A stretch of 29,344 nucleotides of DNA from a virus: the IMG/VR virus record IMGVR_UViG_3300027763_000179, positions 1-29,344 of that record, one strand, 5' to 3'. How positions within the stretch are numbered: position 1 is the first letter of the stretch; every line of letters begins with the position of its first letter. The notes under the pieces are model-generated. The model ran no database searches and was not told the origin of the DNA. It saw nothing but the letters and a program-made list of their open reading frames with translations. Both the position numbers and the translations under genes were made by a program. Of the stretch, positions 2,765 to 29,344 are shown one piece after another.

Positions 2765-2770
2765 CCTGCT

Positions 2771-3673: not shown

Positions 3674-3683
3674 TTAGACTGGG

Positions 3684-3689: not shown

Positions 3690-3700
3690 AATATGTACTT

Positions 3701-3728: not shown

Positions 3729-3758
3729 CCTATTTGTTAAAATACCAGTTTTTAAAAT

Positions 3759-3766: not shown

Positions 3767-3785
3767 AAGTGATAGGAATAACACA

Positions 3786-9500: not shown

Positions 9501-9952
9501 ATCAAACACAAGCCACTGGCAACAGAATTGGTCTAGAGCTTACTGGCAGAATACAAAACAATGGTTCAACTGATCCACGTAGTACATTGAGCAGTGATGG
9601 TGGCACAGCGGCCATACTTGGCGCACAACAAGCATCGCCAACAGGAGCATATAATAATTCATTACCGCCTGGCAATTCACGAGAACTTACCGACGCTAGA
9701 ACTTCCTGGGCCGCTAAAACTACACCAGTCTCTTTACAAAATGCACAACCGCCAATGCCAGTCACTGATGGCAACAATAACGTGTTAGACACAACAAACA
9801 TAGAATCTAGTCCACCAAAATTAAATTCTGTAGTGTCAAGAATCAACGCGGCTGCAACCGCCGCAGGACCTAGAGGCCGTGGTGCCGCCCCAGGCAATCC
9901 TACAAGCTCAACAATTCCTAATAACCAACTAATTAACAAACCTGACTATTAA
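6584..9952 (+). CDS. Probable baseplate hub protein (gp27-like position), 1122 aa
   Basis: Likely the central hub subunit that joins the tube cap to the gp5 spike, inferred from position directly before gp5 and from beta-rich structural motifs. Residues 1-60 form a Leu-heptad coiled coil (ELQAEIVRLQERYRIAQ), followed by a Pro/Thr/Asn-rich linker to about 198. Structured part one includes DFKLVKVVPQPNVLDQYP (200), DFYIDSLSISTLT (296), a VVEPQGMTMLERL stretch (330) and KFIPFLIKNINW (399). A second disordered linker (about 460-540) carries AERDDAAAVDA. Part two includes YPYWFTGQNVAVLEYQENLN (725) and VKVKIIGDPAWLQQGSVLK (815). The tail from about 945 is again low-complexity. ENDGT(A/S)ST occurs twice (near 145 and 270). 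The gp27 equivalence is tentative, since I recognise style rather than clear homology. GGGG lies 9 nt before the ATG. Confidence 0.6.
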   Translation: MATVTELQAEIVRLQERYRIAQNGLATLNKSLQSNQAILARYTAEVSSIPGQIVLLEAQINANQPPPPATASQTAGDDSPKGPNAPPKAQVGDNGRIVPPPDTTTPTNAIPPATTETTGATTGTNAPVRTTEQTQATYYENDGTASTSNTALKAPAVGANTEGNAGEADASAAIKPGVGKKDDAATPNPTNTQAAVNANDFKLVKVVPQPNVLDQYPSSNYIASVYLLNDTQYKRLIDSEVKKIDGYQLLFQSGGAGVSDGVIRAPSQTVYENDGTSSTTEINYSSADRNPYFDNDFYIDSLSISTLTHGKGSGSAHSSTDIKFTVVEPQGMTMLERLRDAVANHAPQGSNGAINYVAATFLLVIRFYGYDQNGNIVQPIKGGMLGNDVTSDPKAAVEKFIPFLIKNINWSVGTKTVSYDWECAPVGQYLGGYSDRGTVPFDMQLNASSVELMLGGPATYSSTTTSPANPGASTTNAKTSTPGFVPVGGNNTANQQATVRRIDNATIVPASSAQAERDDAAAVDAAAPQTAAAAPTTKKTVVQGLMAALNDFQKQAVEDGKIEQADVYSVEFVGPDANLIAGASLNTLTGKYDKTKTPAGVNGPGSINPDTNSVDPASRSSSITAGQQIIQVLELVLRNSQYITKQALFEIDRYGNQVPTKNPTSNDQVRWYNISMSATQRSDKIDKKRNAFAYDIKYTISPYLIKNLNSVYFPVNSFSGVHKSYPYWFTGQNVAVLEYQENLNVLYKATLNGSKDDKSSADRIKGAQTSNLLELMSFSLASRSGESSQGALGRTFDLTANAAEQLYDPASLRSVKVKIIGDPAWLQQGSVLKPTSVSTVGASAFTTGFNPDGSISYDTQDILFEVNWQPPEDYNLSTGLADPYSGKQSSVQKQYNTKTSKISRVYIATKVTSTFRQGRFEQELEGVLYQFAPVTLTANATPGGSFASSSNLDAERASNASAVAASNKARGNNQTQATGNRIGLELTGRIQNNGSTDPRSTLSSDGGTAAILGAQQASPTGAYNNSLPPGNSRELTDARTSWAAKTTPVSLQNAQPPMPVTDGNNNVLDTTNIESSPPKLNSVVSRINAAATAAGPRGRGAAPGNPTSSTIPNNQLINKPDY

Positions 9953-11499: not shown

Positions 11500-13500
11500 A
11501 TGGCAGAATTTACATTTAATCTTGACCAACTTAAATCAAGTGTCGGTAGCATTGCTACCAGTTTTGAATCTAAACTCTATTCTAAAACACGTGATCAAGA
11601 TCTCAACTATACCGGTAATGATTATATTATATGGGACAGAACAAATGCTGAACGTATACGTCGTGGATTACCTAGTTTAACTGAGATTGGTTTTCCAAGA
11701 CCACCCGAAGATACAACAGGCGGCACAACAGGAGCAACAGGAACGCCAGCAACAGGAGCCGCTCCCACAAATCCTGACGGCACCGCAAAAACATTTGCTA
11801 TCAAAGGTCCACCGGGACTCACTCGCGAGCAAGCATTTGCAATTTTTAAGAAACAAGCCGACACCGGTGGTTTAGTGGGGTTCACACCCGGCGAAACACT
11901 CAGTGCGTCGACACAAGCCGCAGATGGCCTGGTTGGAGCACAAGCCATTGTGGCACAAGCACAGTCTGGAATAAACGGTAGTATAAACAGTCTAGGTGGA
12001 TTCTCATCAAGTCTATCAGCAGCAGGTGTGGACCTGTCAACTGGTAGAATTCCATCAGTTGATTCAGCATTTGCCAAAGGTGGCATCAATGGCGGTGCCG
12101 CTGGCCTTGGTGCAGTGGTAGGTAGTGTTGCTTCAGGCCTTGGTTCAGCCGGCGGAGCATTAGGCGGATCACTTGCTGGTATTACCCCAGGATTGACCGC
12201 CGCTGTTGGACCAGCAGTATCTTCGGTGTCGGGAGCCCTAGGCGGCGTGGTCGGATCCAGTCAACTTGGTTCAGCTTTGGTTGGTGCATCTGCTGTGCAA
12301 GGATCAGTTGCAGTAACTTCGATACAAACAATCAACAAAACTATTACTGGACTGCCAGTTACTAGTCCCATTAACGTGGCAGACTTTTCAAAGATTGCAT
12401 CCGGTATTAATTCTGTGGGTGCCGTGGCTCCTATTGGTCCCATGAGCATACCTGAAGTCAACGGGGTGTTGGCACAGGCAAAAAATCTTACCGGACAAGG
12501 GTTTGGCGATCTAAGCGATGCCAATGGCCTGGGAGCATTTGGATTGAATCTTGGTCAATTAGAATCTGCTGGATATGTTAAACCAGGAACTCGTGCTAAA
12601 TTTAGTACAGACTTGTCAGCATTCAGTACCGTGATAAACAGTCCTGCTGTATGGACCGGAAAAGACGGAGTTAAGAATGCCGGCGATTTACTGGCCAACG
12701 CATCCAAACAAAGCCAAATACAACAAGACTTGATGACCAAAGGTGTGGCAGGTATGGGGGCAGTAGGCATACCTGTACAAAATTTATCAAGCCAAGGCAT
12801 TGCTGGCATGAGTTTAAATGCCGCAAAAAGTTTGCCCAATGCAGAAGCATTTGCCAAAGGCCTGACCATACCCGGAGACTCCACTGGTGCGGTGCAAGCA
12901 GAGTTTGCTACAGCAGTAAGAGATGGTGCATTTGCTGTCAATTTAGTAAACACAAAAATACCCACAGCATTCAAACAACAAGAAGTTCCTAAACCAGCGT
13001 CGGATACTGTGGGTAGAGCCACAGTGGATGCTGCCACTACTCGTGTGATAGGCGATGACAAAGTACCAGCACCCAGTTACACTCCCAAACCGGTATCTGA
13101 CAACACAGAAGATGTTGTGGCGTATGTGAATACTGCCAAGACCCTAGCAACTGATTATATTACCCCAGCAAACATAGCACTTACTGCCATTGGTAATAAA
13201 TTAACAGCATTAGAAAGCCAACAAACAATTACACAACAGCAGTACGATGCAATCAACAACGAATACCAGCAGGCACGAAATACGTTTAATGCAAAGGCAC
13301 CAGAACTGATAGCAATATTAGAATCAGCTTTTGCTCGATTAGGTACCAAACAACAAGAACTGCTATACACCAGCGACAAGTTTACCAATATAATAAACAT
13401 TAGAGCCGCCAAATCAATACTGTTAGACAAGAGCAAAAATATCAAACAAAGATTGGTTGAGTTAAGTTTAAAAATTGAAGGACGTGGAGAGGGTGAATAA
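11500..13500 (+). CDS. Unrecognised 666-aa structural protein, Gly/Ala-rich with C-terminal coiled coil
   Basis: I do not recognise a named family. The N-terminus carries NYTGNDYIIWDRTNAERIRR (36-55) and then GLPSLTEIGFPRPPED, followed by a Thr/Gly/Ala linker. Residues 194-270 form a Gly/Ala/Val/Ser-rich hydrophobic run (GGAAGLGAVVGSVASGLGSA, GALGGVVGSSQLGSALVGAS). The middle (300-500) has repeated Gly-X-Gly and NLSSQGIAGMSLNAAKS-type helices. The C-terminus (about 558-660) is a charged coiled coil (LTALESQQTITQQQYDAINN). The gene starts 1 nt after the gp5 stop and is followed by the gp25 promoter, so it belongs to the hub cluster. A tail-lumen or membrane-interacting role is possible from the hydrophobic Gly-rich run, but this is inference. 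Confidence 0.85.
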   Translation: MAEFTFNLDQLKSSVGSIATSFESKLYSKTRDQDLNYTGNDYIIWDRTNAERIRRGLPSLTEIGFPRPPEDTTGGTTGATGTPATGAAPTNPDGTAKTFAIKGPPGLTREQAFAIFKKQADTGGLVGFTPGETLSASTQAADGLVGAQAIVAQAQSGINGSINSLGGFSSSLSAAGVDLSTGRIPSVDSAFAKGGINGGAAGLGAVVGSVASGLGSAGGALGGSLAGITPGLTAAVGPAVSSVSGALGGVVGSSQLGSALVGASAVQGSVAVTSIQTINKTITGLPVTSPINVADFSKIASGINSVGAVAPIGPMSIPEVNGVLAQAKNLTGQGFGDLSDANGLGAFGLNLGQLESAGYVKPGTRAKFSTDLSAFSTVINSPAVWTGKDGVKNAGDLLANASKQSQIQQDLMTKGVAGMGAVGIPVQNLSSQGIAGMSLNAAKSLPNAEAFAKGLTIPGDSTGAVQAEFATAVRDGAFAVNLVNTKIPTAFKQQEVPKPASDTVGRATVDAATTRVIGDDKVPAPSYTPKPVSDNTEDVVAYVNTAKTLATDYITPANIALTAIGNKLTALESQQTITQQQYDAINNEYQQARNTFNAKAPELIAILESAFARLGTKQQELLYTSDKFTNIINIRAAKSILLDKSKNIKQRLVELSLKIEGRGEGE

Positions 13501-13517: not shown

Positions 13518-13895
13518 ATGGCACAAACATTCATTGGATTCAACACACAAAATCAATACAAAAAGTTTACACTCACGGATTTTGCTTTGGTAAAACGTGA
13601 TTTGCTTAATGCATTTAACATACGTCAAGGGCAATTGCCTGGACGTCCAGCATATGGCACATCGTTGTGGGATTTTTTGTTTGAGGCTCAACTTGAAGAT
13701 TTAAACACTGCTATAGTGAATGAAGTACAAAGAGTAGCCGGTGGTGACCCTAGGATTTATATCAATGATGTACAAAGTTACCCCCAGGAAAACGGTATAT
13801 TAATTGAAATTGAATTGACCGTGGTACCCAGCACTGATGCCGAAAGATTAAGTATTTTCTTTGATTTGCAACAACGCAATGCCTCTTATGTATAA
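13518..13895 (+). CDS. 25: Baseplate wedge protein gp25
   Basis: 125-residue wedge subunit of the GPW/gp25 family, which sits at the base of the sheath and nucleates it. Typical features are the helix FTLTDFALVKRDLLNAFNIR (17-36), the RPAYGTSLWDFLFEA segment (43-57, matching the family's FG..L...LF.. motif), a long helix, the conserved (E/D)PR motif as DPR (77-79), and the terminal beta pair (ILIEIELTVVP). The length is close to T4 gp25. No Shine-Dalgarno lies just upstream of the ATG; GGAGAGG is about 28 nt away. A late promoter ends 5 nt before the ATG, so translation may be leaderless or reinitiated. gp6 follows after 48 nt, the usual gp25-gp6 (P2 W-J) order. Confidence 0.92.
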   Translation: MAQTFIGFNTQNQYKKFTLTDFALVKRDLLNAFNIRQGQLPGRPAYGTSLWDFLFEAQLEDLNTAIVNEVQRVAGGDPRIYINDVQSYPQENGILIEIELTVVPSTDAERLSIFFDLQQRNASYV

Positions 13896-13943: not shown

Positions 13944-16900
13944 ATGGCAAAAACCACAAGACAAACAGCGATATTTGGTGTAGAGGATTGGAAACAAATC
14001 TACCAAACCTATCGCGAAGCTGATTTTCAAAGTTATGATTTTGAAACACTACGTAAAAGTTTTGTTGATTATCTGCGTTTGTACTATCCAGAAACATTCA
14101 ACGACTACATTGAATCAAGCGAATACATTGCCTTACTAGATGTTATGGCATTTATGGGGCAAGCACTGGCTTTCCGCACAGACTTAAACACTCGCGAAAA
14201 TTACATGGACACAGCTGAACGTAGAGATTCAGTTGTGCGTTTGGCAAACTTGGTAAGTTATACTGCCAAACGCAACATTGCCGCACAAGGGTTACTCAAA
14301 GTATTTTCGGTTACCACAACAGAAAATCTAGTGGATTATAATGGTGTAAATCTTAGCAACATTACTGTGGATTGGGCCGACCCCACAAACCCAGACTGGC
14401 AAGAGCAATTTACCACAATTATAAATGCCAGTTTAGTAGACACACAAAAAATTGGCAGACCGGGCAACCGTCAAACAATGCTTGGTGTACGCACAGACGA
14501 ATATGCAATTAATTTAGTTCCAGGATATTTGCCAGTTGTTCCTTATACTGCCACAGTGGATGGGGTGAGCATGCCTTTTGAGGCAATGACTTCAACCTCA
14601 GTTGGCGAAAATTATTTGTACGAACCCCCACCACGACCCAATCAACCTTTTAATATTTTATTTCGTAATGACAGTTTAGGATTTCAGTCATCCAACACTG
14701 GTTATTTCTTCATGTTCAAACAAGGCATATTACAAAATCAAGATTTTAACTTAGGTGAACGAGTGAGCAATCGCACAGTCAATATCAATATCGAAGGTGT
14801 TAACAATGAAGACCGTTGGCTGTTTCAACTAGACAATGTTGGCAACATAAATCGTGAATGGCAATATAGTGAAAACATTTATGCCGCTGGTGGCGAACAA
14901 ATAGCCACCAGCACTCGTCCCATATACTCAGTAACTTCAAGAACCAATGATCAAATTACCATGGTGTTTGGTGATGGCGTATTCTCAGAAATTCCCGTAG
15001 GTACATTTCGGGCGTATGTACGTGCTAGTAACGGATTGCAATATATTATCAATCCAGAAGAAATGCAGTCTGTAAATATTCCTATCAGTTACATTAGTCG
15101 TGCTGGTAATCTTGAAACAATGACATTCACTTGTGGTATCACAAGACCTGTTAGCAACAGTCAGGCACGTGAAAGCATTGACGCTATTAAACAACGTGCC
15201 CCTGCTAGATACTACACACAAAATCGCATGGTCAATGGCGAAGACTATAATCTTTTTCCATACACTCAATATAACAGTATTGTAAAATCCAAGGCATTGA
15301 ACCGTGCAAGCATTGGAACTAGTCGTTATCTTGACCTAGTAGACAACACAGGCAAATATTCAAGCACAAATATATTTGGCAGTGATGGTGGATTGTGGGA
15401 AGAAAATATATTACCTACAATTTTATTCTCTTGGACCAACCGTAATGAAATTTCTGATTTGGTTACCAATCAAATACAACCAAAAATAGCAGAAACTTTG
15501 ATGCGGCAATTTTATTATGCAAATTTCCCCAGGGTCACATCCACCACATTGCCGACGGCCGTCACTTGGTTACCTAACACAACCTGGAATCAAAGCACAA
15601 CATTAGCCAACGAAACCACAGGCTATTTTAAAAATGCCGCAGGAACACCAATACCAATTGGATCAACTACCACAACACAATTTAAGTATGCTGTGGTAGG
15701 AAGTTTAATTAAATTTGTTCCGCCCACTGGCTACTACTTTGACAAAAATAACAAACTACAACAAGGTACACCTACCAGTGCAGATCAGAAATTAGAAATT
15801 TGGGCCAGTCCATTGAGCATTCAAGGCACTGGATACAACAACGGTCTTGGTAACTTGTCTTCGGGTGCTGGACCGGTAGCACTGAATAATTTTGTTCCCA
15901 CAGGAGCATTGATCAACACAATTATTCCTTTGTTTGTAACTGATTTACCACAAAGTGTAGAACTATCTATAACTGAACAAATTTTATTAAATCGTAACTT
16001 TGGATTAGGGTACGATAACAACGGTGACATAACCGGAACACCATACTCGTGGTATGTAATTACCAGTACCAATTTAAACGCTGATGCTACGTGGAGTCAA
16101 ACATACGCTGGTAATACATCGGGCACCAATTTAGACGCCAGTTGGTTGATACAATTTGTAGTTCAGAATCAAAACTACACAATCACATTCCGCGGACTGT
16201 CCTATTTCTTTGGATCAGTATTGCAGACACGCTTTTTCTTCTACGATGGTTCTCCGATTTACGACAGCCGCACAGGCACTGTTATCAAGGACTACATCAA
16301 TTGTTTGGCGGTGAATACCCAACCAGATTCAACTGACCATTTGCCTGGCGATATCTACATGACCATAACTGGTCAACCAGTAGAAAGCGACGGCTATGTT
16401 GATGACTTCCAGGTCCTGGTAGGATATCGCGACAGTGACAATGATGGTGTACCGGACAACCCTGATTTCTTTAGTGAAATTGTTGCTCCAAGTACTAACC
16501 CAACACAAAAATATATTTACTTACAGAAGACTGTGGACTTTGACAACCTACAACGCTACCTATTGGTAGAGCCAGGAGTTGTTACCAGCGACTACGGCAC
16601 ATATGATGAGATTGAATTGGTAAAAAATTCTTGGACTCCGGGGCAAGTGTTCTATGCATATAGTCAAGTTAATACTAATAACACAGTGGGTGCATTTTAT
16701 CAACTCAGCGTTGGCGTAACTGGTGTTAGGACATTAATTGATGTCACAACCGAATGGATTGCTAGAACAGGACGTCAGGCATTGTATTTCCAATACAGAC
16801 ACAATGCACCGTTGACTGCACGTATTGATCCAGGCACCACAAACATTATTGATTTGTATGTGGTAACACTGGCATATTATACATCATATCAAAACTGGAT

Positions 16901-17414
16901 ACGTGACACAACTGGCAAAGTTGTTGAACCAGATATTCCTACCATTGATGAATTGTCAACTGCGTATCAGGGATTAGAAAATTATAAAATGATAAGCGAC
17001 AACATTGTTTTAAACTCTGTTGTGTTCAAACCTTTGTTTGGAGAAAAAGCCGCACAAAATCTTCGTGCCACAATCAAGGTCATACGTGCAAGCAATTCAA
17101 CTGCTAGTACCAGCGAAATCAAAAGTAGTGTAGTAGCCGCAATGAATACATATTTTAGTATTGACAAATGGAATTTTGGCGATACATTTTATTTCTCAGA
17201 ACTTGCGGCTTACTTGCATAGTCAACTGGGTACAATCATAAGTTCCGTGGTGTTGGTACCACTCAACAGTCAGAAATACTTTGGTGACTTGTACGAAATA
17301 CGTTCAGCACCCAATGAAATATTTGTTAACGGTGCCACAATCAACAATATTGACGTTATTGAAGCATTGACCAGTACCAACTTGCGTACTGCACCCGGTA
17401 GTGGAGTAATTTAA
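13944..17414 (+). CDS. 6: Baseplate wedge protein gp6 (gpJ-like), enlarged
   Basis: Main wedge scaffold linking neighbouring baseplate wedges. The N-terminal third matches gp6: FGVEDWKQIYQTYREADFQS, ESSEYIALLDVMAFMGQALA, an N.RENYMDTAERRDSVVRLA segment, and SYTAKRNIAAQG. The central J-like part follows: QITMVFGDGVFSEIPVGTFR, then RESIDAIKQRAPARYYTQ and VNGEDYNLFPYTQYNSIVKS. The C-terminal J domain is visible as KWNFGDTFYFSELAAYLHSQ and SVVLVPLNSQKYFGDLYEIR. It has 1156 residues against about 660 in T4, with extra beta-rich material at about 510-950. Within that, DSDNDGVPDNPD (830-841) looks like a thrombospondin type 3/EF-type calcium loop. It overlaps the next gene by one base (TAATG). Confidence 0.9.
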   Translation: MAKTTRQTAIFGVEDWKQIYQTYREADFQSYDFETLRKSFVDYLRLYYPETFNDYIESSEYIALLDVMAFMGQALAFRTDLNTRENYMDTAERRDSVVRLANLVSYTAKRNIAAQGLLKVFSVTTTENLVDYNGVNLSNITVDWADPTNPDWQEQFTTIINASLVDTQKIGRPGNRQTMLGVRTDEYAINLVPGYLPVVPYTATVDGVSMPFEAMTSTSVGENYLYEPPPRPNQPFNILFRNDSLGFQSSNTGYFFMFKQGILQNQDFNLGERVSNRTVNINIEGVNNEDRWLFQLDNVGNINREWQYSENIYAAGGEQIATSTRPIYSVTSRTNDQITMVFGDGVFSEIPVGTFRAYVRASNGLQYIINPEEMQSVNIPISYISRAGNLETMTFTCGITRPVSNSQARESIDAIKQRAPARYYTQNRMVNGEDYNLFPYTQYNSIVKSKALNRASIGTSRYLDLVDNTGKYSSTNIFGSDGGLWEENILPTILFSWTNRNEISDLVTNQIQPKIAETLMRQFYYANFPRVTSTTLPTAVTWLPNTTWNQSTTLANETTGYFKNAAGTPIPIGSTTTTQFKYAVVGSLIKFVPPTGYYFDKNNKLQQGTPTSADQKLEIWASPLSIQGTGYNNGLGNLSSGAGPVALNNFVPTGALINTIIPLFVTDLPQSVELSITEQILLNRNFGLGYDNNGDITGTPYSWYVITSTNLNADATWSQTYAGNTSGTNLDASWLIQFVVQNQNYTITFRGLSYFFGSVLQTRFFFYDGSPIYDSRTGTVIKDYINCLAVNTQPDSTDHLPGDIYMTITGQPVESDGYVDDFQVLVGYRDSDNDGVPDNPDFFSEIVAPSTNPTQKYIYLQKTVDFDNLQRYLLVEPGVVTSDYGTYDEIELVKNSWTPGQVFYAYSQVNTNNTVGAFYQLSVGVTGVRTLIDVTTEWIARTGRQALYFQYRHNAPLTARIDPGTTNIIDLYVVTLAYYTSYQNWIRDTTGKVVEPDIPTIDELSTAYQGLENYKMISDNIVLNSVVFKPLFGEKAAQNLRATIKVIRASNSTASTSEIKSSVVAAMNTYFSIDKWNFGDTFYFSELAAYLHSQLGTIISSVVLVPLNSQKYFGDLYEIRSAPNEIFVNGATINNIDVIEALTSTNLRTAPGSGVI

Positions 17415-20400
17415 TGGCCAAGGTTCGTAGTGTAGATTTTCTTCCTGAAATATTTCAGACTGATGCCAACAAACAGTTTCTTGCAGCCACACTAGATCAG
17501 CTTATACAAGAGCCTAGTTTTAAAAAGTCACAAGGATTTATTGGCCGCACCGTAGGCCCTGGTGTCAATCCCAACGACAAATATGTAATTGAACCCACAG
17601 CCACACGAGCCAACTATCAACTTGAGCCCGGAGTAGTAAGTCTTGTTCCTGAAAATACCAACAAGATACAAAACGCTATTACCTATCCGGGCATGAATGA
17701 TGCTGTGGCATTTCAAGGTGGCAATGGCGACAGGCCAGATAGACTATACTCAAGTGAGTATTACACATGGGATCCGTTTGTTGATTTTGATACATTTGTA
17801 AATTTTAGCCAATATTTTTGGTTACCAGCAGGTCCCGACGTAGTTGACGTAGCGGCAGTGGTATCGCCGGTGTCGGAAAATTTTGTAGTGACTCGGGCCG
17901 AAAATGCATATTCTTTTTCGGGAGTTTATGGTGAAGATCCGGTCATTGAATTAATTCGCGGCGGCACGTACACTTTTCAAATAGCCCAAAATCCCAAAGA
18001 AACCATAACATACAGAGTTACCAACAACAGAACTCAAGCCTATGTAATCAACAGTCAAAACAATCCTGCACTTAGTCTAATTCGTGGCAACACCTATCAA
18101 TTTAATCTAACATTAACTGGAGCATTTCCATTCTGGATAAAAACTGCAGCCACCACAGGTGTAGGCGATAGTTATAATTCTGGCGTAACACGCAACGGAT
18201 CTTCTGTTGGGTTGGTAACATTTGTTGTGCCACAAGATGCACCAGACACACTTTATTACGCTAGTCAAGACCAATCCAACATGCAAGGTGTGTTGAATAT
18301 TGTAGATGCCACAGCTGGCAACGGACCTGAATTTTGGATACAATCAGAACCGGGCGTGTCAGGAACATTGCCCTACTCTCCCAACATCAGCAGTAGAGAT
18401 GTGTACGGTGTGGTCAATGATGGCACCGATCTTGGTACAATAACATTTAATGTGCCTTATACTGATGCACAAGCATTTTATTATAATCTTACTGACATTG
18501 GCACAATTGATTTAGTTACTGAACTAGATTACGATCAAATCAATAACCAACCATTGGTTGAATTCTTGATCGAATACGATGGAATTGATGATACTACCAA
18601 TCTCAATACCAGAACATTAATTTTTATTAACAATCCTGCCCTGGTTAACAAATACCAAATCACTTACGTCACTGTTGATGATGTGGTGTACCTTCAATTG
18701 ATTGATATCGGGATTATCAATCCCCTGGAAAAATTTACAATATTGTATGGCACAGTATACAGTAATACACAATGGTACAAAGATCCGGTTGACCTCTTTC
18801 AACAAATCCCACTATTAACAGCAATAGAAGATACTCTGTATTATCAAGACAGTGAAAATCCAGACCTAGTGGGTCGCATTAGATTGGTTGACGCTGATCA
18901 AACTGGCATAATTTATATTGATCAAATTCTGGGCAAAAAAACTTACACAGCTCCGAATGGAGTTGCATTTACCAATGGCCTCAAGGTAAGATTTACAGGA
19001 AATGTTGAGCCTGCTGTTTACGGATCAGGCACCACTAGTATTACGTGTACCGGTACTGAATACGGCACAAATTATATCACGTATGACAACACTAATACAT
19101 CTTTGTATGTGGGTCAAGAAATTGTATTTGTTGCCCCCACACTTGGCGGATTGGTGGCAGGACAAACTTATTATGTGAGATCAATTTCAGCTAACAATGT
19201 AAAATTCACAGTAAGCAGTATTCAGTACGGAGCAACACCTGTTGCATTATCAACTGCAACAGGATCAATGACAGCCAATGCTGTGGCCAATAGAGAATAC
19301 TATGTAAGCGGTGTGGGAACAGCAATTGAATTGTTGCCAACTAGTAGTCTTGATGTTTACGAAACTTATGCTGTAGATGCCGATACCACAACTGTTGTAA
19401 TTGAGCCAACACAACCGGACTATCTTACAATCAGTCGTGCCAGTAAAGATCTAAATGCATGGAGTCGCAGTAACCGCTGGTTTCACATTGATGTAATTAA
19501 TGCAACAGCTGAATATAACAATACCACCGCGGTGCTTGACAATAACTATCGAGCCAAACGTCCTATTATACAATTTAGATCTGGATTACGATTATGGGAC
19601 ATGGGCACAGACGGCAAAGCACCTGTGGACATTATTGATTTTACACAAACAGATGCATTTAGCAATGTTGAAGGTAGTGCTAGTTATTCCACAGATGGAT
19701 ATACATTTGTAGAAGGCACACGAGTAATTTTTGCCGCAGATGAAGATACTGATGTAAAAAATAAAATTTATGTTGTTAGTTTTGTTACGCCTGATACATC
19801 ACCTAATACCAATGCTGGCGACTTTTTGATAGGCGTACACTATAATATTTTAACACTTGGATCAACTGACTGGAATGCGGCCGCTGGAACTTCTGGAATA
19901 ACTTACGCAGTTGGCGACGGTTTTATCGCTGCCACTGCGGGATCTGGGTCAGGAACAGCCACAGTTGACGAACCAATTATTACATTGACCCAAGCACCTG
20001 ACGGAATAGTATTGCTTGATCAATCCACAGTTTGCCTTAATGGCAATACCAGTGCCGGACTTACCTATTGGTATGATGGTACTGATTGGATAGAAGCACA
20101 ACAAAAAACTGCAATCCAACAAGCACCACTTTTTAATATATACGATGTTGATGGTGTAAGTTTTGGAAACAAAGTAAAATATCAATCTTCAGACTTTACA
20201 GGATCAAAATTATTCAGTTATGCTGTGGGAGATACCACCATACTTGATCCAGTTTTGCAATTCCCGTTACAATATTTAAACATCAACAACGTTGGTGATA
20301 TTGTGTTTGACAACAACTTGTATGTTGATACGTTTACATACACTATAGATAATGTTAGTACTACCAGTGACATAAGTGCGGGTGCGGCACGTGAATATGC

Positions 20401-23400
20401 TGATAGAACCATTTATGCAAAATTAATTGGTTGGCAAACTGCTGTAGTTGAGCAACAAATTTATCAGCAATTTAAATTTACATACGACGGTTCTCCTCTT
20501 AAACTTGACATTGCTACCACGCCGCAAACATCTATTGCAGTTCCTGTAATTAAAATATATGTAGGTAGTCAATTTGTTGACCCATCATTATATACCTATG
20601 TGATTGGTACTGATAATACTGTTATTACATTAACAAACACTTATGTTCCAACCGATATCATTGAAGTGTTGGCACTAAGCGATCAAACAAGCAAAGTGGC
20701 ATTTTATCAAGTGCCAAATAATCTTGACAGTAATCCTCTCAATGCCAATAGCTCTGCATTTACTTTGGGCACAATTCGCACACATTACGAAAGTATTTGC
20801 CAAAATTTGTTGACAGTAACTGGTAAAATTAACGGTGCTAATAACACTCGAGATCTTGGTGATATTGTTCCTTATGGCCTAGTAATACTACAACAAAGTT
20901 CGCCATTGACTCTAGCCGGCTATTTCATGCGTAGTCCAGCTTACAATATTTTTGCCAGTTTGCAATTTAACGGTCGTGAATACATTAAATTTAAAGCACA
21001 AATGTTAGATGCAGTTTTAACACAACAAAACATTGCGTTTAAAACAACAGCTGAAATTCTTAACACTGCCATAGCCGATATCACCCTGGGAAAACTTGAC
21101 ACGCAACCATTTTACTGGAGTGACATGATCCCGGCCAGTGTGCCATACGCTACAAATTCTTACACAGTGGGATATACTACACAACCCACATTTGACACAG
21201 TACAAGTATACAACTACGAGTCAGCCAACTACCTTGGCATGTGTGTGTATCTAAATGATGAAATTTTAACACGTGGTCTTGATTATGAAGTTGCCATCAA
21301 CGGCCCACGATTGACAATACTCATAACATTAGCACTGGGAGATGTTGTAACTATAAATGAATACAATGCCACTTATGGTAATTTTGTACCCAACACTCCA
21401 ACCAAGTTGGGACTATACCCTGCATGGCAACCGGCTGTACTACCGCAATCAACCAGCAATGGTGTAGAAAACTTCACTCAAGGCCACGACGGTAGTATAA
21501 CTCCGTTGTTTGGAGACATACGTGATCAAGTGTTGTTGGAATTTGAAACTAGAATTTACAGCAATTTAAAACTTGATGGCAATCCAGTGCCACTAACAAT
21601 TGAAAATGTGTTACCAGGACAGTTTCGTACTACTGGATACACGTTTGAAGAAATCAATACAATATTTGCCCAGGACTTTTTGAGCTATTGCGGTTGGAAC
21701 AAACTGGATTACAGTCAACAAACTTACAAAGCCACCAATGAGTTCACCTGGAACTACAGCAATTCACAAAGCAAACTAGACAAACAAAACTTGCTGGGTG
21801 CCTGGCGTGGAATCTATAGATATTACTATGATACACAACAACCCAGTTATACTCCTTGGGAGATGTTGGGTTTTGCAATTGAACCCACGTGGTGGGAAAA
21901 TAGATATGGTCCAGCACCGTACACACAAGACAACTTGGTATTGTGGGACGACTTGGCCGCAGGCTACGTAGCAGATCCTGTTGTACCATATTATAAACCA
22001 GAATATGCTAGACCAGGTTTAACTTCTGTTATTCCCACAGGGACCGAGGGCGAATTATTAAGCCCGTTCAACAGTGTGGTTGGTGTTGCATTTAATGATT
22101 ACAATGCTGGCTCACAATTTAATAAAAGTTGGGCCATAGGCGACGGCGGCCCAGTTGAAGCGTCATGGTGGAATAGTTCAGCATACCCATTCTCGGTCAT
22201 GCATGTGCTGGCAGTTACTCGCCCAGCAGAATTCTTTGCATTGTTTGCTGATCGAGATTTATACAAGTTTGATACAGATTACAATCAGTATTTGTACAAC
22301 GGTCGTTACAGATTAAATGCCAATCAACTTGAAATTTATGGCGATGGCGTCAGCAAAGCCAGCTATATTGATTGGATTGTGGATTTTAATCGTCAATCTG
22401 GAATCAATAGTACCCAAGCCCTTACCGCCGATCTTGACAATCTTGACGTGAGATTGTGTTACCGCATGGCCAGTTATTCGGACAAGCAATATATTAAATT
22501 ATACACTGAAAAATCCAGTCCCAATAGTACCAATAACACATTGATGATTCCAGACGAGAGTTACAATATTGTTTTGTATAAAAATCAGCCATTTGATCGA
22601 ATTGTTTATAGTTCAGTAGCAATACAAAAAGTATCCGGCGGATATGCGGTATTTGGATACGGAACTACACAGCCATATTTTAATATATTACAAAGTCAAG
22701 CAGTTGGTAGATTGCAAGAATACAGCTCTGGCGGAATTACTGTTAGAGTTCCAACTTTCTATAGTGATAATGTGGTTCAAGTACCATATGGATTTATTTT
22801 CAGCAACGAAACCGCAGTTAGTGATTTCTTGTTGAGTTATGGCAAATTGCTAGAAAATCAAGGACTTACTTTTGACAATATCTCAGAAAATAACTATGTC
22901 TTGGATTGGTCAAGAATGGTTGATGAATTCTTATATTGGAGCCAGCAGGGGTGGAATACAGATGCGATTATCAATTTAAATCCATTGGCCGCTAAATTAA
23001 CAGTAACACGCCCTGGTGCAGTAGTTGATAGCATTGTGACCGAGACCAGCGAAAATTTATTGTTGGACCAGAATTCAAGAGAATTACCAACTCGCACTCT
23101 CAATATTGTTCGTATAGACAATACATTTGTTATACAGCCATTGAGCACTCAAACAATTAGTTTTATTGATTTGAAATTTACAAATTTTGAACACATGATT
23201 GTGTTGAACAATCGCAGTGTGTTTGGCGATCTAATTTATGATCCCACAACAGGTGCTAGACAAAGTCGTCTAACCCTTGTGGCGGTGACCACTGCTGACT
23301 GGAATGGAACACTTGACACTCCAGGTTTTATTTTAAACCAAGACAATGTGGAAGAATGGACAGGTTTACGCACCTATAGCAAGGGAGAAATTGTCAAATA

Positions 23401-26400
23401 CAAGAATGTGTATTGGTCTGCTCTAAAGATAGTCCAACCAACTGAAAATTTTGATTTCAATGATTGGGTGCAAAGCGACTATACACAAATAGAACTTGGG
23501 TTGTTGCCTAACTTGGCCAACAAAGCCAATCAATTGTCCAACAGTTACAATATCAATACCGCCAATATCGAACTTGACAACGATCTATTGGCATACGGAT
23601 TGATTGGATACAAGCCTAGACAATACTTGGCCGCGTTAAACCTTGACGACGTTAGTCAAGTTAACATATATCGACAGTTCCTTGATACCAAGGGCACTAT
23701 CCTTGCGGCAGAATTATTTAAATCGGCCAACCTTGGCAAAGAAGCAGCCGATTATAGCATATATGAAAATTGGGCAGTACAACGAAGTGTGTATGGTGCC
23801 AATGCTAATCGCAGTTTTTTTGAACTTCGTTTAAATCGTGCATTGCTAGATGCCAACCCCAGTCTGGTTCAAGTGGTGTTACCACAACAAACAAGTTCAG
23901 CAGATCAACAAATACTACTAAGTGATGTTTGGAGACAGAGTTATAAACTCACAAGTCCTGATATTTTACCAACCACGACAGAATTACCTACCGATACTGG
24001 CTTGCCTTCAGCAGGATATGTAAGTCTTGATGATGTTGATATCACAGTGTTTGATATCAATAGCACAGCCAGTTTAAGTGCCAACATAGATGCAATTCAA
24101 GTTGGTACCAGTATATGGGTGGCCAAGATCAATGATTATGATTGGAACATTTACCGTGCTCAAGCAGTACCTGGACAAATACAACACGTATGTGATAATT
24201 TAAACGGCACCAGCCGTGTGATCTTTAGCGGTAATCATGGCCTGGTTGCTGGCGACAAGTTAATTATTAAATTCTTTGATATTGAAGTCAACGGGGTATA
24301 TCAAGTATTATCAGTATTAAATTTAACCACAGTAAACATTGCATTTGCGTTTAGTGGCAATAGATCAGTAGCAAACGGTACTGGCCTGGGATTCACATTG
24401 CAAACCATGCGTGTTGCACAGGCAAGCGATGTACTTACATTACCATATGCCAATGACATTTTGCCCGGTGCAAGAGTTTGGGTAGACAACAACGGCAGTG
24501 GGTTGTGGGAAGTATTGCAAAAGAACACAGTATTTTCAGATGTTATTTCTCTTTATCCAGCATTGTTAGATGCCGGCGAACAATATGGTGCCAGTGTATC
24601 ACAAGCAAGAAATCGAACAGCGGCCTTAGTCGGCAGTCCCAAATACGGATTTGGTGTAGGCATTGAAAAAGGCGGATTATATTTGTATGTTAAAAACTAC
24701 AGCGATCAGTACACCCCCGTAAGCCCAGTGTCCGGTGGAGATGCGGTACTCACACTAGATGTCACTGGTGTGCGTGGTTATGGTAATGCTATAGATTTTG
24801 GCAATCAAACCTGGGCAGTGGCCGGTGCAAGCAAAAGTCTAGGGTCTGGCAGCCAAGCCAACAATGGATATGCCAGTGTTATATATCGTGATCCTGCTCG
24901 AGGACAACCCGGGGTAGTACCGTTTGCACAATGGCAGTTGTTGACACAACCTGCTGGATACGGAACACTACTAACTGGTGCTGGTGAGTTTGGTTATAGT
25001 GTGGCCATGAGTCTTGACGAACGTTGGATGTATATTGGTGCACCTGGATTGAATAGTGTACACGCTTATGGTCGGGTTGATTGGCAAAATCAATTTATAC
25101 GAGTTAGGGGTAACGGAGCCACAACAGCATACACCATTAACGACACCATACAAATCAACAACTCGAGCCAAATCAAGATAACACTAGACGGGCAATTGCA
25201 AACAGTTGGTGTTAATTATACTGTCAACGGTTCTTTTAGCACTGTTACTTTTGTCACACCACCCGCTGATGGTGTGCTGATAGATATTTCTAGATATTAT
25301 GCATTTCAAATCCCAGCAACATCTGCTACGTTCAATTTGTCTAACGGAATAGACGCAAGCGGCAATGCTGTGGGAATTTTCACAGCCACAAACATATATT
25401 CATTTAGCATTACTGTAAATGATGCATTATGGCGGCCAAATATTGATTACACATTTGCTGGTACCACAGTGACTTTTATCACAGCAAGAGCACCTAGTGA
25501 TGTTGTGGTTGTAAACGCACAAAGTTATTTTGAATATGTAGATACCATCGACACATCAAGTGTATCAGGCGGACTCACTGCAGGTGATCAATTTGGTGAT
25601 GCAATTTCTTGTACCACTGATGGTAGACAAGTTATAATTGGAACACCAGACAGCACAGTTGACGGCAAAACTGAAGCTGGTGCTGTTTATGTGTTTGATC
25701 GCAATGTACAAACATTCATCAAGAACGATGATTCAAGCAATGCTTACATAGTTCTTGGCACAGTTACTGGACCGGTTAGTGTAATTGTTAATAATCAATT
25801 TTTAATTAATCAAACCGACAGCACGATTGGTGCTGCCAATTCGTTTACTGTATCTGGAAATACTATTAATATCAATGCAGATTTAATAATTGGCGACACT
25901 ATTCAAATTGAAACCAATCAATTTAGTTTGATACAACAAGTGGATCAAAACACAGTGGCCGAATTCTGTAATTTTGGGCAAGCGGTAGACATCTGCGCCA
26001 ACAACTGTAGTCTATATGTAGGCGAACCACAAAGCAGTCAACAAATTTTCAAAGGCGGCGTAGTTGAACGTTTTGTAAATCAAAGTCGTGTCTATGGCAC
26101 AATTACTGCCACTGTGGCTAATCCTGTGCTCACCGCTGGCAACACTATTCGAATTAACAACATTGATGTAGAAGTTCCTGCTAGTGATCCAACTGTGCAA
26201 GGACTAGCAGATCAAATCAACGGTGTTCCGGTAGGATCACAAACTGGTGTACAAAATGTTCTAGCCACAGTCAGTGCTACAGGATACCTTACAATATCAA
26301 TTAAAAATCCTGATGCGGCTCCACAATTTAACAAATTACAAGTGGCACCGGGCACTGTGGGCACAACATTTGACGATTTAGGATTTGATACATTCGCTTG

Positions 26401-29344
26401 GACACAAACAATTGAAAGTCCATATCCTACAGAATATGCTGGATTTGGTAGCAGTCTCAGTATTGATGACTCGGCTGTTAATCTAGTGGTCGGAGCACCC
26501 AAAGGAACTATCTATCTTGAAACTGAATTTGATGACGGTACCACAATCTTTGACGTTGGTAGTACTGTGTTCTTTTCAATAATTATACAAAGCGGTGCAA
26601 TATACACATACGATTATTTGCCCAGTTCAACCTTGGTCATTACCAATCCGGGCAAGTTTGTTTTTGGACAACAGATCAACAACAGTGACGTGGCACCGTA
26701 TGATGGATTTGGTACTTCGGTTAATTACACATCGGGTGTGGTCATGGCCGGAGCACCTAAAAATGATTACGGTGATAGCTCAGCTGATTTTGGTTCAGTG
26801 TTTGTGTTTGAAAACACCACCGGCACCCTTGCATGGACAGTGACCAACATACAACAGCCCACCGTGGACATACGTTTATTAAACTCGGTATTTTTGTATG
26901 ATAGAATTACTGGAGCCAGAACTGAATTTTTAGATTTTATTAATCCGTTACAAGGCAAGATACTTGGTGCCGCCAAACAAAATATTGATTATATTGGTGC
27001 CGTTGATCCTGCCTCATACAACATAGGTCCGGTAAATGTTCGTGGAACTACTTGGTTTGGTGAGCGTGTGGGTGAAGTTTGGTGGGATATATCAACAGTT
27101 AGATTTATCGATCCCAATCAAGACAACATCACATACGCTAGTCGTCGCTGGGCACAAATATTCCCAGGAAGTGTAATTGATGTTTACCAATGGGTATACA
27201 GTCCAGTACCTCCGGTACAGTACAATGGAGAAGGCACACCTTACAACACATTCAGTTATACTGTAAACACTAGACTCACGTTAGATGGCACATTCGCCAC
27301 AGAATATTATTTCTGGGTGCGAGACATCACAGTTACCGCAACCAAACTTGGAAAAACACTACCAGTAAGTACCATAGCATCGTACATAACTAATCCACGT
27401 GCGTCAGGCATTCCGTACATGGCACCAATCAATGCTAGTACCATAGCTCTTTATAACAGCGGAGATTACATTGAAGCCAGTGACACAATTATTAATATTG
27501 AATTTGATCAGCAATTAACTGATGCTGACGTTCACGTTGAGTACGAATTAATACCACAAGATCGTCCTGATGGATTCTTGAGTGATATATTGTATCGCAA
27601 ACTACAAGACAGTTTCTGTGGCGTAGACACATTTGGTAATCAAGTGCCTGATCCAAGACTGGGTCCTGCTGAAAGATACGGAGTACAATTCCGCCCAAGA
27701 CAAAGTATGTTTGTGGATCGCTTTGCGGCATTGAAAAACTATCTTGTGAGATGCAACACAGTTTTAAGTCAGTATCCTGTTAGCGAAAATAGATCATTCA
27801 ATTTGTTGAACAGCAGTCAAGCAGAACCGATGCAAACTGAAACTGTTAACGGAGTTACTATTACAAATTGGAATTTACGTATAGCTAATTTAGAAATACT
27901 AGGTTTTCAAACACCGTTCTGGAGCAATACCAGCGGGCCAATACCATTAGGATACAAATACCTTGTGACGACTGACAGCAGTCAGCGTGGGTTGTGGACA
28001 ATTTATACTGTTGAAGCAAGCGATGTTTCGGCCTCTGGCAGAATGCTAGTATTAACCAAAGTGCAAGGTTATAATACTCCTGACTATTGGAATTACATTG
28101 ATTGGTACCGCCCTGGTTATAATTCCAGCACCAAGGTTGTGGCAGAAGTCTCCACATACTCTGCATTGGCCACGCTTACAGTTCCTGTAGGCAGTAGTGT
28201 CAAGGTCACGGCCAATGCACAAGGCAAGTTTGAAATTTATTTAAAAACTGATCTAGGTTGGGAACGTGTTGGACTACAAGATGGTACTATTGAATTTTCA
28301 GCAGAATTATGGGATTACGCATTAGGACGATTTGGTTTTGACGTCGAAGTATTTGACGCACAATATTTTGATCAGGAACCTGTTACCGAAACACGTAAAA
28401 TTATACAGGCCATTAACGAAGAGTTGTTTGTAAATGAACTAGCAATTGAACGCAATCGTGCATTAGTATTAGTATTTAATTTTGTATTGAGTGAATTTTC
28501 AGCACCTGAATGGCTGGTCAAAACCAGCTTGATTGATGTGGATCACAGAATACGTGAATTGATACCTTATCAAAATTACATAAGAGACAATCAAGAATTT
28601 GTTAGTGATTACATTCAAGAAGTTAAACCGTATCACGTTAGCATTCGAGAATTTAATTTAAAATACGCAGGGTTTGATGAATTCTTTGGTGATACCACTG
28701 ATTTTGACTTGCCTGCATATTACAATACTTCACTAGACATACCAGCATATACCAGCCCAATTTTATTACCATATGATCACGGTACTGCATCTGGTGCATC
28801 AATTAATGATTTAAGTGATTTGCCAGCAACTAGTACAGTATGGACAACATGGCCATACAATCAATGGTACAATAATTATCTATTAAATTTGATAAGCATA
28901 CGAATAATAGACGGTGGATTGGGGTACGCCCAAGCTCCTTTGGTTATTATTTCTGGAGATGCCGAAACTCCAGCCACGGCTGTGGCAATAATCAATGCTG
29001 TTACGGGCGTAGTAACTAGTGTAGATATAACTTATGCAGGATCAGGATATACCACAACTCCCACAATAACATTTGATGGTGGCAACGGTACTAATCGTAT
29101 GGCAACCGCTTATGCGGTCATGAATTATAACTTGAGTACAAACATGTATGCCGGACTTGTGCGTAGTATCAAGACTACCATGAAGTTTGATCGTTTCCAA
29201 TATTTCTCAGACGTATCAGATTGGAGTGCAAACGGCACGTATCAGGATGGTACTCTAGTGCGGTATGAAGATCGTGTGTATCAAGCTGCCAGTCAGGACT
29301 CCACCGCAGTGGTTGGTCCAACATTTAATCTTGAAGACTGGAAC
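17414..29344 (+). CDS. Giant virion structural protein, at least 3977 aa, 3' end beyond window (probable wedge/tail-fibre element)
   Basis: Open in one frame from ATG 17414 to the right edge (3977 codons, no stop met; frame confirmed at eleven spaced landmarks). It occupies the place of T4 gene 7 after gp6, but I see no clear gp7 homology. The N-terminus SVDFLPEIFQTDANKQFLAA with IQEPSFKKSQGFIGR looks like a baseplate-docking helix pair. Domains in order: EYYTWDPFVDF (115); a cupredoxin-like fold (217-298) lacking most copper ligands; beta-rich modules; GHDGSITPLFGDIRDQVLLE (1357); a W/Y module (1981-2020); a seven-blade FG-GAP propeller (2390-3135); EVKPYHVSIREF (3736); two GGxGY repeats (3829-3890); a second W/Y module (3936 to edge). 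GGAG lies 7 nt before the ATG. A wedge/fibre role and host-surface binding are inferred from position and domain types. Confidence 0.85.
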   Translation, partial: MAKVRSVDFLPEIFQTDANKQFLAATLDQLIQEPSFKKSQGFIGRTVGPGVNPNDKYVIEPTATRANYQLEPGVVSLVPENTNKIQNAITYPGMNDAVAFQGGNGDRPDRLYSSEYYTWDPFVDFDTFVNFSQYFWLPAGPDVVDVAAVVSPVSENFVVTRAENAYSFSGVYGEDPVIELIRGGTYTFQIAQNPKETITYRVTNNRTQAYVINSQNNPALSLIRGNTYQFNLTLTGAFPFWIKTAATTGVGDSYNSGVTRNGSSVGLVTFVVPQDAPDTLYYASQDQSNMQGVLNIVDATAGNGPEFWIQSEPGVSGTLPYSPNISSRDVYGVVNDGTDLGTITFNVPYTDAQAFYYNLTDIGTIDLVTELDYDQINNQPLVEFLIEYDGIDDTTNLNTRTLIFINNPALVNKYQITYVTVDDVVYLQLIDIGIINPLEKFTILYGTVYSNTQWYKDPVDLFQQIPLLTAIEDTLYYQDSENPDLVGRIRLVDADQTGIIYIDQILGKKTYTAPNGVAFTNGLKVRFTGNVEPAVYGSGTTSITCTGTEYGTNYITYDNTNTSLYVGQEIVFVAPTLGGLVAGQTYYVRSISANNVKFTVSSIQYGATPVALSTATGSMTANAVANREYYVSGVGTAIELLPTSSLDVYETYAVDADTTTVVIEPTQPDYLTISRASKDLNAWSRSNRWFHIDVINATAEYNNTTAVLDNNYRAKRPIIQFRSGLRLWDMGTDGKAPVDIIDFTQTDAFSNVEGSASYSTDGYTFVEGTRVIFAADEDTDVKNKIYVVSFVTPDTSPNTNAGDFLIGVHYNILTLGSTDWNAAAGTSGITYAVGDGFIAATAGSGSGTATVDEPIITLTQAPDGIVLLDQSTVCLNGNTSAGLTYWYDGTDWIEAQQKTAIQQAPLFNIYDVDGVSFGNKVKYQSSDFTGSKLFSYAVGDTTILDPVLQFPLQYLNINNVGDIVFDNNLYVDTFTYTIDNVSTTSDISAGAAREYADRTIYAKLIGWQTAVVEQQIYQQFKFTYDGSPLKLDIATTPQTSIAVPVIKIYVGSQFVDPSLYTYVIGTDNTVITLTNTYVPTDIIEVLALSDQTSKVAFYQVPNNLDSNPLNANSSAFTLGTIRTHYESICQNLLTVTGKINGANNTRDLGDIVPYGLVILQQSSPLTLAGYFMRSPAYNIFASLQFNGREYIKFKAQMLDAVLTQQNIAFKTTAEILNTAIADITLGKLDTQPFYWSDMIPASVPYATNSYTVGYTTQPTFDTVQVYNYESANYLGMCVYLNDEILTRGLDYEVAINGPRLTILITLALGDVVTINEYNATYGNFVPNTPTKLGLYPAWQPAVLPQSTSNGVENFTQGHDGSITPLFGDIRDQVLLEFETRIYSNLKLDGNPVPLTIENVLPGQFRTTGYTFEEINTIFAQDFLSYCGWNKLDYSQQTYKATNEFTWNYSNSQSKLDKQNLLGAWRGIYRYYYDTQQPSYTPWEMLGFAIEPTWWENRYGPAPYTQDNLVLWDDLAAGYVADPVVPYYKPEYARPGLTSVIPTGTEGELLSPFNSVVGVAFNDYNAGSQFNKSWAIGDGGPVEASWWNSSAYPFSVMHVLAVTRPAEFFALFADRDLYKFDTDYNQYLYNGRYRLNANQLEIYGDGVSKASYIDWIVDFNRQSGINSTQALTADLDNLDVRLCYRMASYSDKQYIKLYTEKSSPNSTNNTLMIPDESYNIVLYKNQPFDRIVYSSVAIQKVSGGYAVFGYGTTQPYFNILQSQAVGRLQEYSSGGITVRVPTFYSDNVVQVPYGFIFSNETAVSDFLLSYGKLLENQGLTFDNISENNYVLDWSRMVDEFLYWSQQGWNTDAIINLNPLAAKLTVTRPGAVVDSIVTETSENLLLDQNSRELPTRTLNIVRIDNTFVIQPLSTQTISFIDLKFTNFEHMIVLNNRSVFGDLIYDPTTGARQSRLTLVAVTTADWNGTLDTPGFILNQDNVEEWTGLRTYSKGEIVKYKNVYWSALKIVQPTENFDFNDWVQSDYTQIELGLLPNLANKANQLSNSYNINTANIELDNDLLAYGLIGYKPRQYLAALNLDDVSQVNIYRQFLDTKGTILAAELFKSANLGKEAADYSIYENWAVQRSVYGANANRSFFELRLNRALLDANPSLVQVVLPQQTSSADQQILLSDVWRQSYKLTSPDILPTTTELPTDTGLPSAGYVSLDDVDITVFDINSTASLSANIDAIQVGTSIWVAKINDYDWNIYRAQAVPGQIQHVCDNLNGTSRVIFSGNHGLVAGDKLIIKFFDIEVNGVYQVLSVLNLTTVNIAFAFSGNRSVANGTGLGFTLQTMRVAQASDVLTLPYANDILPGARVWVDNNGSGLWEVLQKNTVFSDVISLYPALLDAGEQYGASVSQARNRTAALVGSPKYGFGVGIEKGGLYLYVKNYSDQYTPVSPVSGGDAVLTLDVTGVRGYGNAIDFGNQTWAVAGASKSLGSGSQANNGYASVIYRDPARGQPGVVPFAQWQLLTQPAGYGTLLTGAGEFGYSVAMSLDERWMYIGAPGLNSVHAYGRVDWQNQFIRVRGNGATTAYTINDTIQINNSSQIKITLDGQLQTVGVNYTVNGSFSTVTFVTPPADGVLIDISRYYAFQIPATSATFNLSNGIDASGNAVGIFTATNIYSFSITVNDALWRPNIDYTFAGTTVTFITARAPSDVVVVNAQSYFEYVDTIDTSSVSGGLTAGDQFGDAISCTTDGRQVIIGTPDSTVDGKTEAGAVYVFDRNVQTFIKNDDSSNAYIVLGTVTGPVSVIVNNQFLINQTDSTIGAANSFTVSGNTININADLIIGDTIQIETNQFSLIQQVDQNTVAEFCNFGQAVDICANNCSLYVGEPQSSQQIFKGGVVERFVNQSRVYGTITATVANPVLTAGNTIRINNIDVEVPASDPTVQGLADQINGVPVGSQTGVQNVLATVSATGYLTISIKNPDAAPQFNKLQVAPGTVGTTFDDLGFDTFAWTQTIESPYPTEYAGFGSSLSIDDSAVNLVVGAPKGTIYLETEFDDGTTIFDVGSTVFFSIIIQSGAIYTYDYLPSSTLVITNPGKFVFGQQINNSDVAPYDGFGTSVNYTSGVVMAGAPKNDYGDSSADFGSVFVFENTTGTLAWTVTNIQQPTVDIRLLNSVFLYDRITGARTEFLDFINPLQGKILGAAKQNIDYIGAVDPASYNIGPVNVRGTTWFGERVGEVWWDISTVRFIDPNQDNITYASRRWAQIFPGSVIDVYQWVYSPVPPVQYNGEGTPYNTFSYTVNTRLTLDGTFATEYYFWVRDITVTATKLGKTLPVSTIASYITNPRASGIPYMAPINASTIALYNSGDYIEASDTIINIEFDQQLTDADVHVEYELIPQDRPDGFLSDILYRKLQDSFCGVDTFGNQVPDPRLGPAERYGVQFRPRQSMFVDRFAALKNYLVRCNTVLSQYPVSENRSFNLLNSSQAEPMQTETVNGVTITNWNLRIANLEILGFQTPFWSNTSGPIPLGYKYLVTTDSSQRGLWTIYTVEASDVSASGRMLVLTKVQGYNTPDYWNYIDWYRPGYNSSTKVVAEVSTYSALATLTVPVGSSVKVTANAQGKFEIYLKTDLGWERVGLQDGTIEFSAELWDYALGRFGFDVEVFDAQYFDQEPVTETRKIIQAINEELFVNELAIERNRALVLVFNFVLSEFSAPEWLVKTSLIDVDHRIRELIPYQNYIRDNQEFVSDYIQEVKPYHVSIREFNLKYAGFDEFFGDTTDFDLPAYYNTSLDIPAYTSPILLPYDHGTASGASINDLSDLPATSTVWTTWPYNQWYNNYLLNLISIRIIDGGLGYAQAPLVIISGDAETPATAVAIINAVTGVVTSVDITYAGSGYTTTPTITFDGGNGTNRMATAYAVMNYNLSTNMYAGLVRSIKTTMKFDRFQYFSDVSDWSANGTYQDGTLVRYEDRVYQAASQDSTAVVGPTFNLEDWN
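18062..18307 (+). other. Cupredoxin-like domain with lost copper ligands (in the giant gene)
   Basis: Residues 217-298. The pattern NPALSLIRGNTYQFNL, FPFWIKT (238-244), GDSYNSGVTRNG, then FVVPQDAPDTLYYAS and NMQGVLNIVD follows the cupredoxin-like module I know from marine phage proteins, where the ligand motifs are HPF and YYxCxxHxxM. Here the His is Phe238, the Cys is Ser284, the His is Gln287, and only Met290 remains. The fold appears kept without metal binding. Confidence 0.6.
23354..23473 (+). repeat. W/Y-rich carbohydrate-binding-like module, copy 1
   Basis: Residues 1981-2020: EWTGLRTYSKGEIVKY, then NVYWSA and ending FNDW. The pattern W-x5-Y-x2-G-x(I/L)V-x-Y-x3-(V/Y)(Y/W)-x-A resembles the small CBM5/12-type fold. 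It pairs with the module at 29219-29344. Confidence 0.6.
24581..26818 (+). other. Seven-blade FG-GAP (integrin-alpha-like) beta-propeller in the giant gene
   Basis: Seven copies of the FG-GAP pattern (aromatic-Gly, strand, then GxP or GAS, then a strand ending in Y/V-x-Y/F) occur in register. Blade starts by residue: 2390 (QYGASV, VGSPKY), 2455 (GYGNAI, AGASKS), 2525 (EFGYSV, IGAPGL), 2726 (QFGDAI, IGTPDS), 2853 (NFGQAV, VGEPQS), 3010 (GFGSSL, VGAPKG) and 3098 (GFGTSV, AGAPKN). Blades 4 and 7 close with GAVYVF and GSVFVF. Seven is the canonical blade number. Spacing is irregular because beta-modules are inserted, notably about 170 residues between blades 3 and 4 and about 120 between blades 5 and 6. 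Confidence 0.7.
28898..29083 (+). repeat. Two GGxGY beta-turn repeats in the giant gene
   Basis: Residues 3829-3849 (IRIIDGGLGYAQAPLVIISG) and 3870-3890 (VDITYAGSGYTTTPTITFDG) share the frame (I/V)xI-x3-G-x-GY-x3-P-x-(V/I)-x-(I/F). This short repeat is common in phage tail and fibre proteins and usually forms stacked beta-strands. Confidence 0.6.
29219..29344 (+). repeat. W/Y-rich carbohydrate-binding-like module, copy 2 (cut by edge)
   Basis: Residues 3936-3977: DWSANGTYQDGTLVRYEDRV, then YQAA and ending FNLEDW. It is aligned to copy 1 (residues 1981-2020) over its length, including the closing FN-x(0-2)-DW. The protein continues beyond the window, so further copies may follow. Confidence 0.6.

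Follow-up and report, generated by a model that had tools for sequence, protein, structure and literature searches.

What is encoded by an open frame of 3977 codons that lies directly after the gene for the baseplate wedge protein gp6, where bacteriophage T4 carries gp7? The frame is found in a viral IMG/VR contig, 29,344 bases in all, analysed over its whole length and here called the window, in which it runs on the plus strand from an ATG at 17414 to the right edge at 29344. A first-pass annotation of the letters had read it as one polypeptide with a baseplate-like N-terminus and adhesion-type domains, possibly a fusion of wedge and fibre functions.

Integrity and length of the giant frame

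The stop codon of the gp6 gene (TAA, 17412-17414) and the start codon of the giant ORF (ATG, 17414-17416) share one base as TAATG, and the frame stays free of stops for 11.9 kb, both as the first-pass annotation had described; a stop is lacking because the contig ends there. The remaining frames across 17414..29344 hold 175-379 stops, the log10 P of a chance open run this long is about -115, and in each of the eight 500-codon bins the raw pN/pS against five relatives lies between 0.04 and 0.30. A chance open frame was ruled out by these values, and the whole visible frame is under purifying selection. Two contigs from other samples (L009 and L010), which over the final 977 residues visible in the window are 97% identical to the giant, carry an unbroken giant frame of 4877 codons with its stop, therefore about 900 codons would lie beyond the window edge, and the full-length protein is estimated from these near-identical relatives at about 4880 residues. 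T4 gp7 has 1032 residues, in agreement with the figure in the first-pass annotation. The claimed excess of at least fourfold falls just short for the visible part (3.85 times) and holds for the predicted full protein (about 4.7 times).

Most of the giant is more than 95% identical to its counterpart in L009, and residues ~2751-2960 (window 25664-26290), around the FG-GAP repeat described below, are mostly 58-62% identical; this stretch is a variable or recombined patch by sequence comparison. In another locus, L088:533-15723, the giant gene is present as two overlapping frames of 4094 and 995 codons, and the close relatives of L088 are unbroken; the split is a frameshift, either real or an assembly error.

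A family of giant virion proteins in jumbo phages

The giant matched the profile of PHROG 10938 ('virion structural protein') with an E-value of 7e-279 and belongs to that family. When three slices of ~1000 residues were searched by tblastn, matches were obtained in 86-110 INPHARED records, nearly all of them jumbo phages (of Escherichia, Klebsiella, Salmonella, Erwinia, Pseudomonas and others), with the N-terminal slice also matching cyanophages. The gene is present in ~87 sequenced jumbo phages, at least 593 IMG/VR contigs encode relatives, and about 100 further relatives besides L009 and L010 are complete, with frames of 2781-5341 codons. The giant is thus an already catalogued kind of protein, carried by hundreds of jumbo phages, whose members mostly go under the names 'virion structural protein' or 'hypothetical protein' and, in PHROG 10938, even under 'head and packaging'.

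In the window, the giant directly follows gp25 (13518..13895, plus strand; PF04965 above the cut-off) and a gp6-type wedge protein of 1156 aa (13944..17414, plus strand; PHROG 10646, E 3e-281), which HHalign aligned to T4 gp6 with a probability of 88.5 (E 3e-6) and which is larger than T4 gp6 (660 aa). This placement is that of the Rak2-like jumbo phages, and the gp25-gp6-giant order was seen in Atu_ph07 (giant of 4449 aa), Phosso (4555), PA5oct (3857), GAP32 (3341) and CBB (3340); gp6 itself was found in 89 INPHARED records. The PHROG 10938 relatives Atu_ph07 gp180, PA5oct gp355, GAP32_230, CBB_236 and phAPEC6 gp245 share the slot after gp25-gp6 and are homologous to the giant along conserved blocks at 22-28% identity, whereas the window's clade is longer than the Rak2-like relatives (4.7-5.3 k codons) and carries additional inserts at residues ~140-660 and 2250-3100. 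Related proteins of 2541 aa and 4455 aa are described from RsoM2USA (PMC8504454) and AP-J-162 (PMC11242549), respectively. In Salicola phage SCTP-2, gp6 lies at 231-235 kb, away from the giant, and the gene before the giant encodes a 3096-aa protein containing ~15 copies of a ~65-residue unit. No IMG/VR relatives were recovered in single-protein scans with the cores of SCTP-2 and Vibrio 2.275.

Virion mass spectrometry detected CBB_236 (21 unique peptides, coverage 7.7%; PMC5259590), and phAPEC6 gp245 (382 kDa) with 17 unique peptides next to 21 for the adjoining wedge protein gp244 (PMC7247149); PA5oct gp355 carries an annotation note of its detection in virions by mass spectrometry. PHROG 10938 giants are therefore present in virions, as shown for these three phages only, and the three sources assign the giant no specific role. 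The CBB paper lists gp6 in a table of T4 core homologues and does not mention gp7 (PMC5259590).

Whether the frame corresponds to one protein was considered from two sides. It runs off the contig edge, as might a product of misassembly or of a sequencing error joining several genes; however, it is intact in the two 97%-identical contigs and in the ~100 other complete relatives and is under selection throughout, so that an artefact is refuted for the family and is exceedingly improbable for the window. A hidden stop/start pair, named in the first-pass annotation as a possible refutation, was looked for and ruled out by the uninterrupted frame of L009 and L010, and the claim of a single polypeptide has held up in every sequence test available. 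After translation, the single chain could still be cleaved by a phage or host protease, giving a gp7-like piece and separate peripheral proteins. The published peptide coverage, only 7.6-7.7%, is too low to prove that the chain is intact in the virion, but no direct evidence speaks for cutting and none is seen in the available portions of the published virion data; we consider such processing quite improbable.

Matches to gp7-type blocks inside the chain

The position agrees with gp7, as had been proposed: gp6 is followed by gp7 in T4 and in eight further T4-like phages. Comparing 600-residue slices of the giant by HHalign with T4-type gp7, gp5, gp6, gp8-gp12 and wac, along the lines that the first-pass annotation had suggested for gp7, gp10 and fibres, gave nothing above 20% probability, and T4-type gp7 taken whole did not match the giant. 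No gp7 appeared among its PHROG matches or in the top 50 PDB fold matches of two slices (residues 1318-2217 and 3112-3859). Its Pfam scans did not contain the curated gp7 families PF21427, PF21428, PF21456 and PF23786, matches of which type are present in known gp7s; because these matches were sought and did not appear, the giant was kept out of the curated gp7 families.

A short Desulfovibrio phage gene, which aligns to T4 gp7 residues 644-897 with 96% probability, served as the entry point to further gp7-type genes in T4-like phages (523-1288 aa), located directly after gp6 in seven of seven annotated T4-like regions. It also gave access to 80 IMG/VR loci whose gp7 frames have ~460-2211 codons. 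The family widened in this way has three blocks, namely B1 (helical, at the N-terminus of the core), B2 (KGT) and, later in the chain, the C-terminal B4 (HPAG). Two of its frames, of 1861 and 2211 codons (L235 and L247), fall in size between gp7 of the T4 kind and the giants. In RefSeq, the gp7-type protein of Pelagibacter phage HTVC008M (L180:5560-8610) is named 'head closure Hc2', a label that seems to stem from a repeat domain in common (PHROG 3465/460).

The profiles of B1, B2 and B4 were each run over 121 windows of an alignment of 73 giants. B2 scored best at residues 2074-2114 (23633..23755, plus strand) with 28.3, whereas the next separate window reached 13.9 and the highest of 20 column shuffles 19.3; K2093 and G2094 within this block are invariant in all 73 giants. 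B1 scored best at ~1803-1840, within a helical block at residues ~1788-1845 (22775..22948, plus strand), with 22.0 against 18.7 for the next window and a shuffle maximum of 19.0. The two blocks stand in the right order, ~230 residues apart. Single-sequence scans with B2 picked the KGT site in 56 of the 73 giants, the target being 1.8% of the length and the giants being related and hence not independent trials. HHalign probabilities in the giant were 73% for B2 and ~40-49% for B1, compared with 96-98% for B2 in known cyanophage giant gp7s. The best windows of B4 (SYxI...HPAG...FG) reached at most 19.1 and did not separate from the background, and the motif EVKPYHVxIREF (~3735), tried as B4, found no support in the window scan. 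The N-terminus LPEIFQTDANKQF, tried as the gp7 core-bundle helix, was ruled out, since the scan puts B1 at ~1800. The matches support, at the profile level only, a remote but real homology of B1 and B2 to the gp7 wedge core, and the profile statistics support an internal position of this putative core, at residues ~1790-2114. A baseplate-like part of the chain is therefore retained from the first-pass annotation in the form of a gp7-like core, lying mid-chain and not at the N-terminus.

Domain layout and a proposed wedge role

Invariant positions of the giant cluster at residues 1-136, 669-1190, 1326-2210, 3158-3440 and 3555-3810, and the stretches between them are missing from many members. 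All features given here lie on the plus strand. The N-terminal block (residues 1-136, 17414..17821) belongs to no known family and is conserved in an alignment of 16 members, in which P11, F22, G44, R65, Y68 and Q69 are invariant; it is followed by a domain in common with PHROG 677, 'baseplate wedge tail fiber protein connector' (residues 195-299, 17996..18310, E 1e-17). The most conserved core 1 (residues 1318-2217, 21365..24064) and conserved core 2 (residues 3112-3859, 26747..28990), for which there is no solved relative, were modelled by AlphaFold at a fair predicted quality (pLDDT 82 and 80, respectively). Foldseek comparison of both models with the PDB matched only a small chitin-binding-like domain, comparison with BFVD matched the giant's own family, and PDB sequence profiles gave no matches to four conserved giant blocks. 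In the core 1 model, B1 and B2 are separated by a ~230-residue insert (22949..23632) with predicted beta-rich structure, the gap being 222-276 aa across the 73 members. The chitin-binding type 3 (CBM5/12)-like domain (residues ~1977-2022, 23342..23479) is a weak match, with a Foldseek probability of 1.00 over ~46 residues at E 0.03-1 and a Pfam score below the cut-off. Further along are an FG-GAP repeat (residues 2723-2761, 25580..25696; PF14312, 32.4 bits, cut-off 23), a repeat domain common to PHROG 460 and gp7 of cyanophage S-IOM18 (28892..29143), which has several copies in S-IOM18, and a CBM5/12-like fragment (residues 3937-3958, 29222..29287; Pfam E 3e-4, below the cut-off). The domain series of the first-pass annotation is thus upheld in part, FG-GAP exceeding the Pfam cut-off and CBM_5_12 falling below it.

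The baseplates of T4, of phage XM1 and of the T6SS are built from six wedges, in each of which a single gp7-type chain is held together with two gp6-type chains by a helical bundle and a trifurcation region (PMC10457771, PMC6300606). The XM1 equivalent of gp7 has only 242 residues, and its flexible parts bind tail spikes. Judging from sequence and gene order, the frame is probably the 3'-truncated gene for a single giant wedge protein in the baseplate of a jumbo myovirus related to T4, a protein that would act as the functional gp7. A core of ~330 residues (B1, insert, B2) would pack with two gp6 copies into a wedge, with B1 and B2 corresponding to the bundle and the trifurcation, and six copies would be expected per baseplate by comparison with T4, XM1 and the T6SS. 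The ~1790 residues before the core and ~2770 after it (~4,550 in total), beta-rich and prone to inserts, may form the peripheral baseplate and provide docking or possibly adhesion surfaces. T4 builds its peripheral baseplate from gp8, gp9, gp10 and gp11. More tentatively, gp7 may have been enlarged here independently of the cyanophage giants, by extensions on both sides, with one chain taking over much of the peripheral baseplate.

Alternatively, the giant could be a peripheral baseplate protein, gp10/gp8-like or new, with the partner of gp6 encoded elsewhere, for example by the 1122-aa or 666-aa ORF of the baseplate cluster. It has no family-level match to gp7, and its separation from gp6 in SCTP-2 would suit such a protein; however, the matches of B1 and B2 to the giant stand in the right order and exceed the controls, neither block matches the two other ORFs, and gp7 fills the slot after gp6 in all T4-like genomes examined, which makes this explanation rather unlikely. 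A wedge-fibre fusion, in which the chain also replaces the tail fibres as the main receptor-binding protein, would account for the FG-GAP, CBM5/12-like and fibre-related PHROG 677/972 pieces within the chain. Those with a carbohydrate-binding likeness are weak or below cut-off, though, separate tail-fibre-like genes lie downstream of the giant in relatives, and the phAPEC6 virion has six baseplate fibres and separate fibre proteins. These observations speak against the fusion suggested by the first-pass annotation, which we consider improbable.

As a functional gp7, the giant would resemble known systems to different degrees. T4 gp7 shares the position after gp6, the overlapping start and the internal core, whereas it has no overall sequence match and the giant is 4.7 times longer. 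XM1 gp17 (242 aa), TssG of the T6SS and P2 gpI are far smaller and are likened to the giant by its proposed role of pairing one chain with two gp6-type chains in each wedge. Giant gp7s are already annotated in cyanophages, so that the window giant belongs to a known kind: a 6387-aa protein 'similar to gp7' in Synechococcus phage S-IOM18 and a 4225-aa 'baseplate wedge initiator' in ACG-2014f directly follow gp25-gp6 and, like the giant, hold thousands of residues with inserts around a small wedge core. S-IOM18 has one repeat domain in common with the giant; block scans placed its B1 at 4-57, B2 at 663-740 and B4 at 3453-3499. In the cyanophage giants B1 is thus N-terminal and B4 present, whereas in the window giant the core is internal and B4 undetected. 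Within the open-access literature, the link of PHROG 10938 to the gp7 core and the internal core position are modestly new. If the gp7 assignment is true, a protein that ranks among the largest in jumbo phages would gain a defined tail role, the unlisted gp7 of Rak2-like phages such as CBB would be explained, and the gp7 slot would tolerate growth from ~460 to more than 6,000 residues, so that the plasticity of wedge size could be put to the test as a question of baseplate design.

Among the other genes of the window, the 1122-aa ORF (6584-9952) and the 666-aa ORF (11500-13500) of the baseplate cluster have no PHROG match, the former weakly matching PA5oct gp349. An 831-aa ORF (3786-6281) matches in its C-terminal part the virion proteins PA5oct gp347 and GAP32_237 (211-245 aa) and has ~575 extra N-terminal residues compared with them. 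Genes for an SbcD-like nuclease and a late sigma factor (1748-3673, minus strand) have the order and orientation seen in PA5oct and GAP32.
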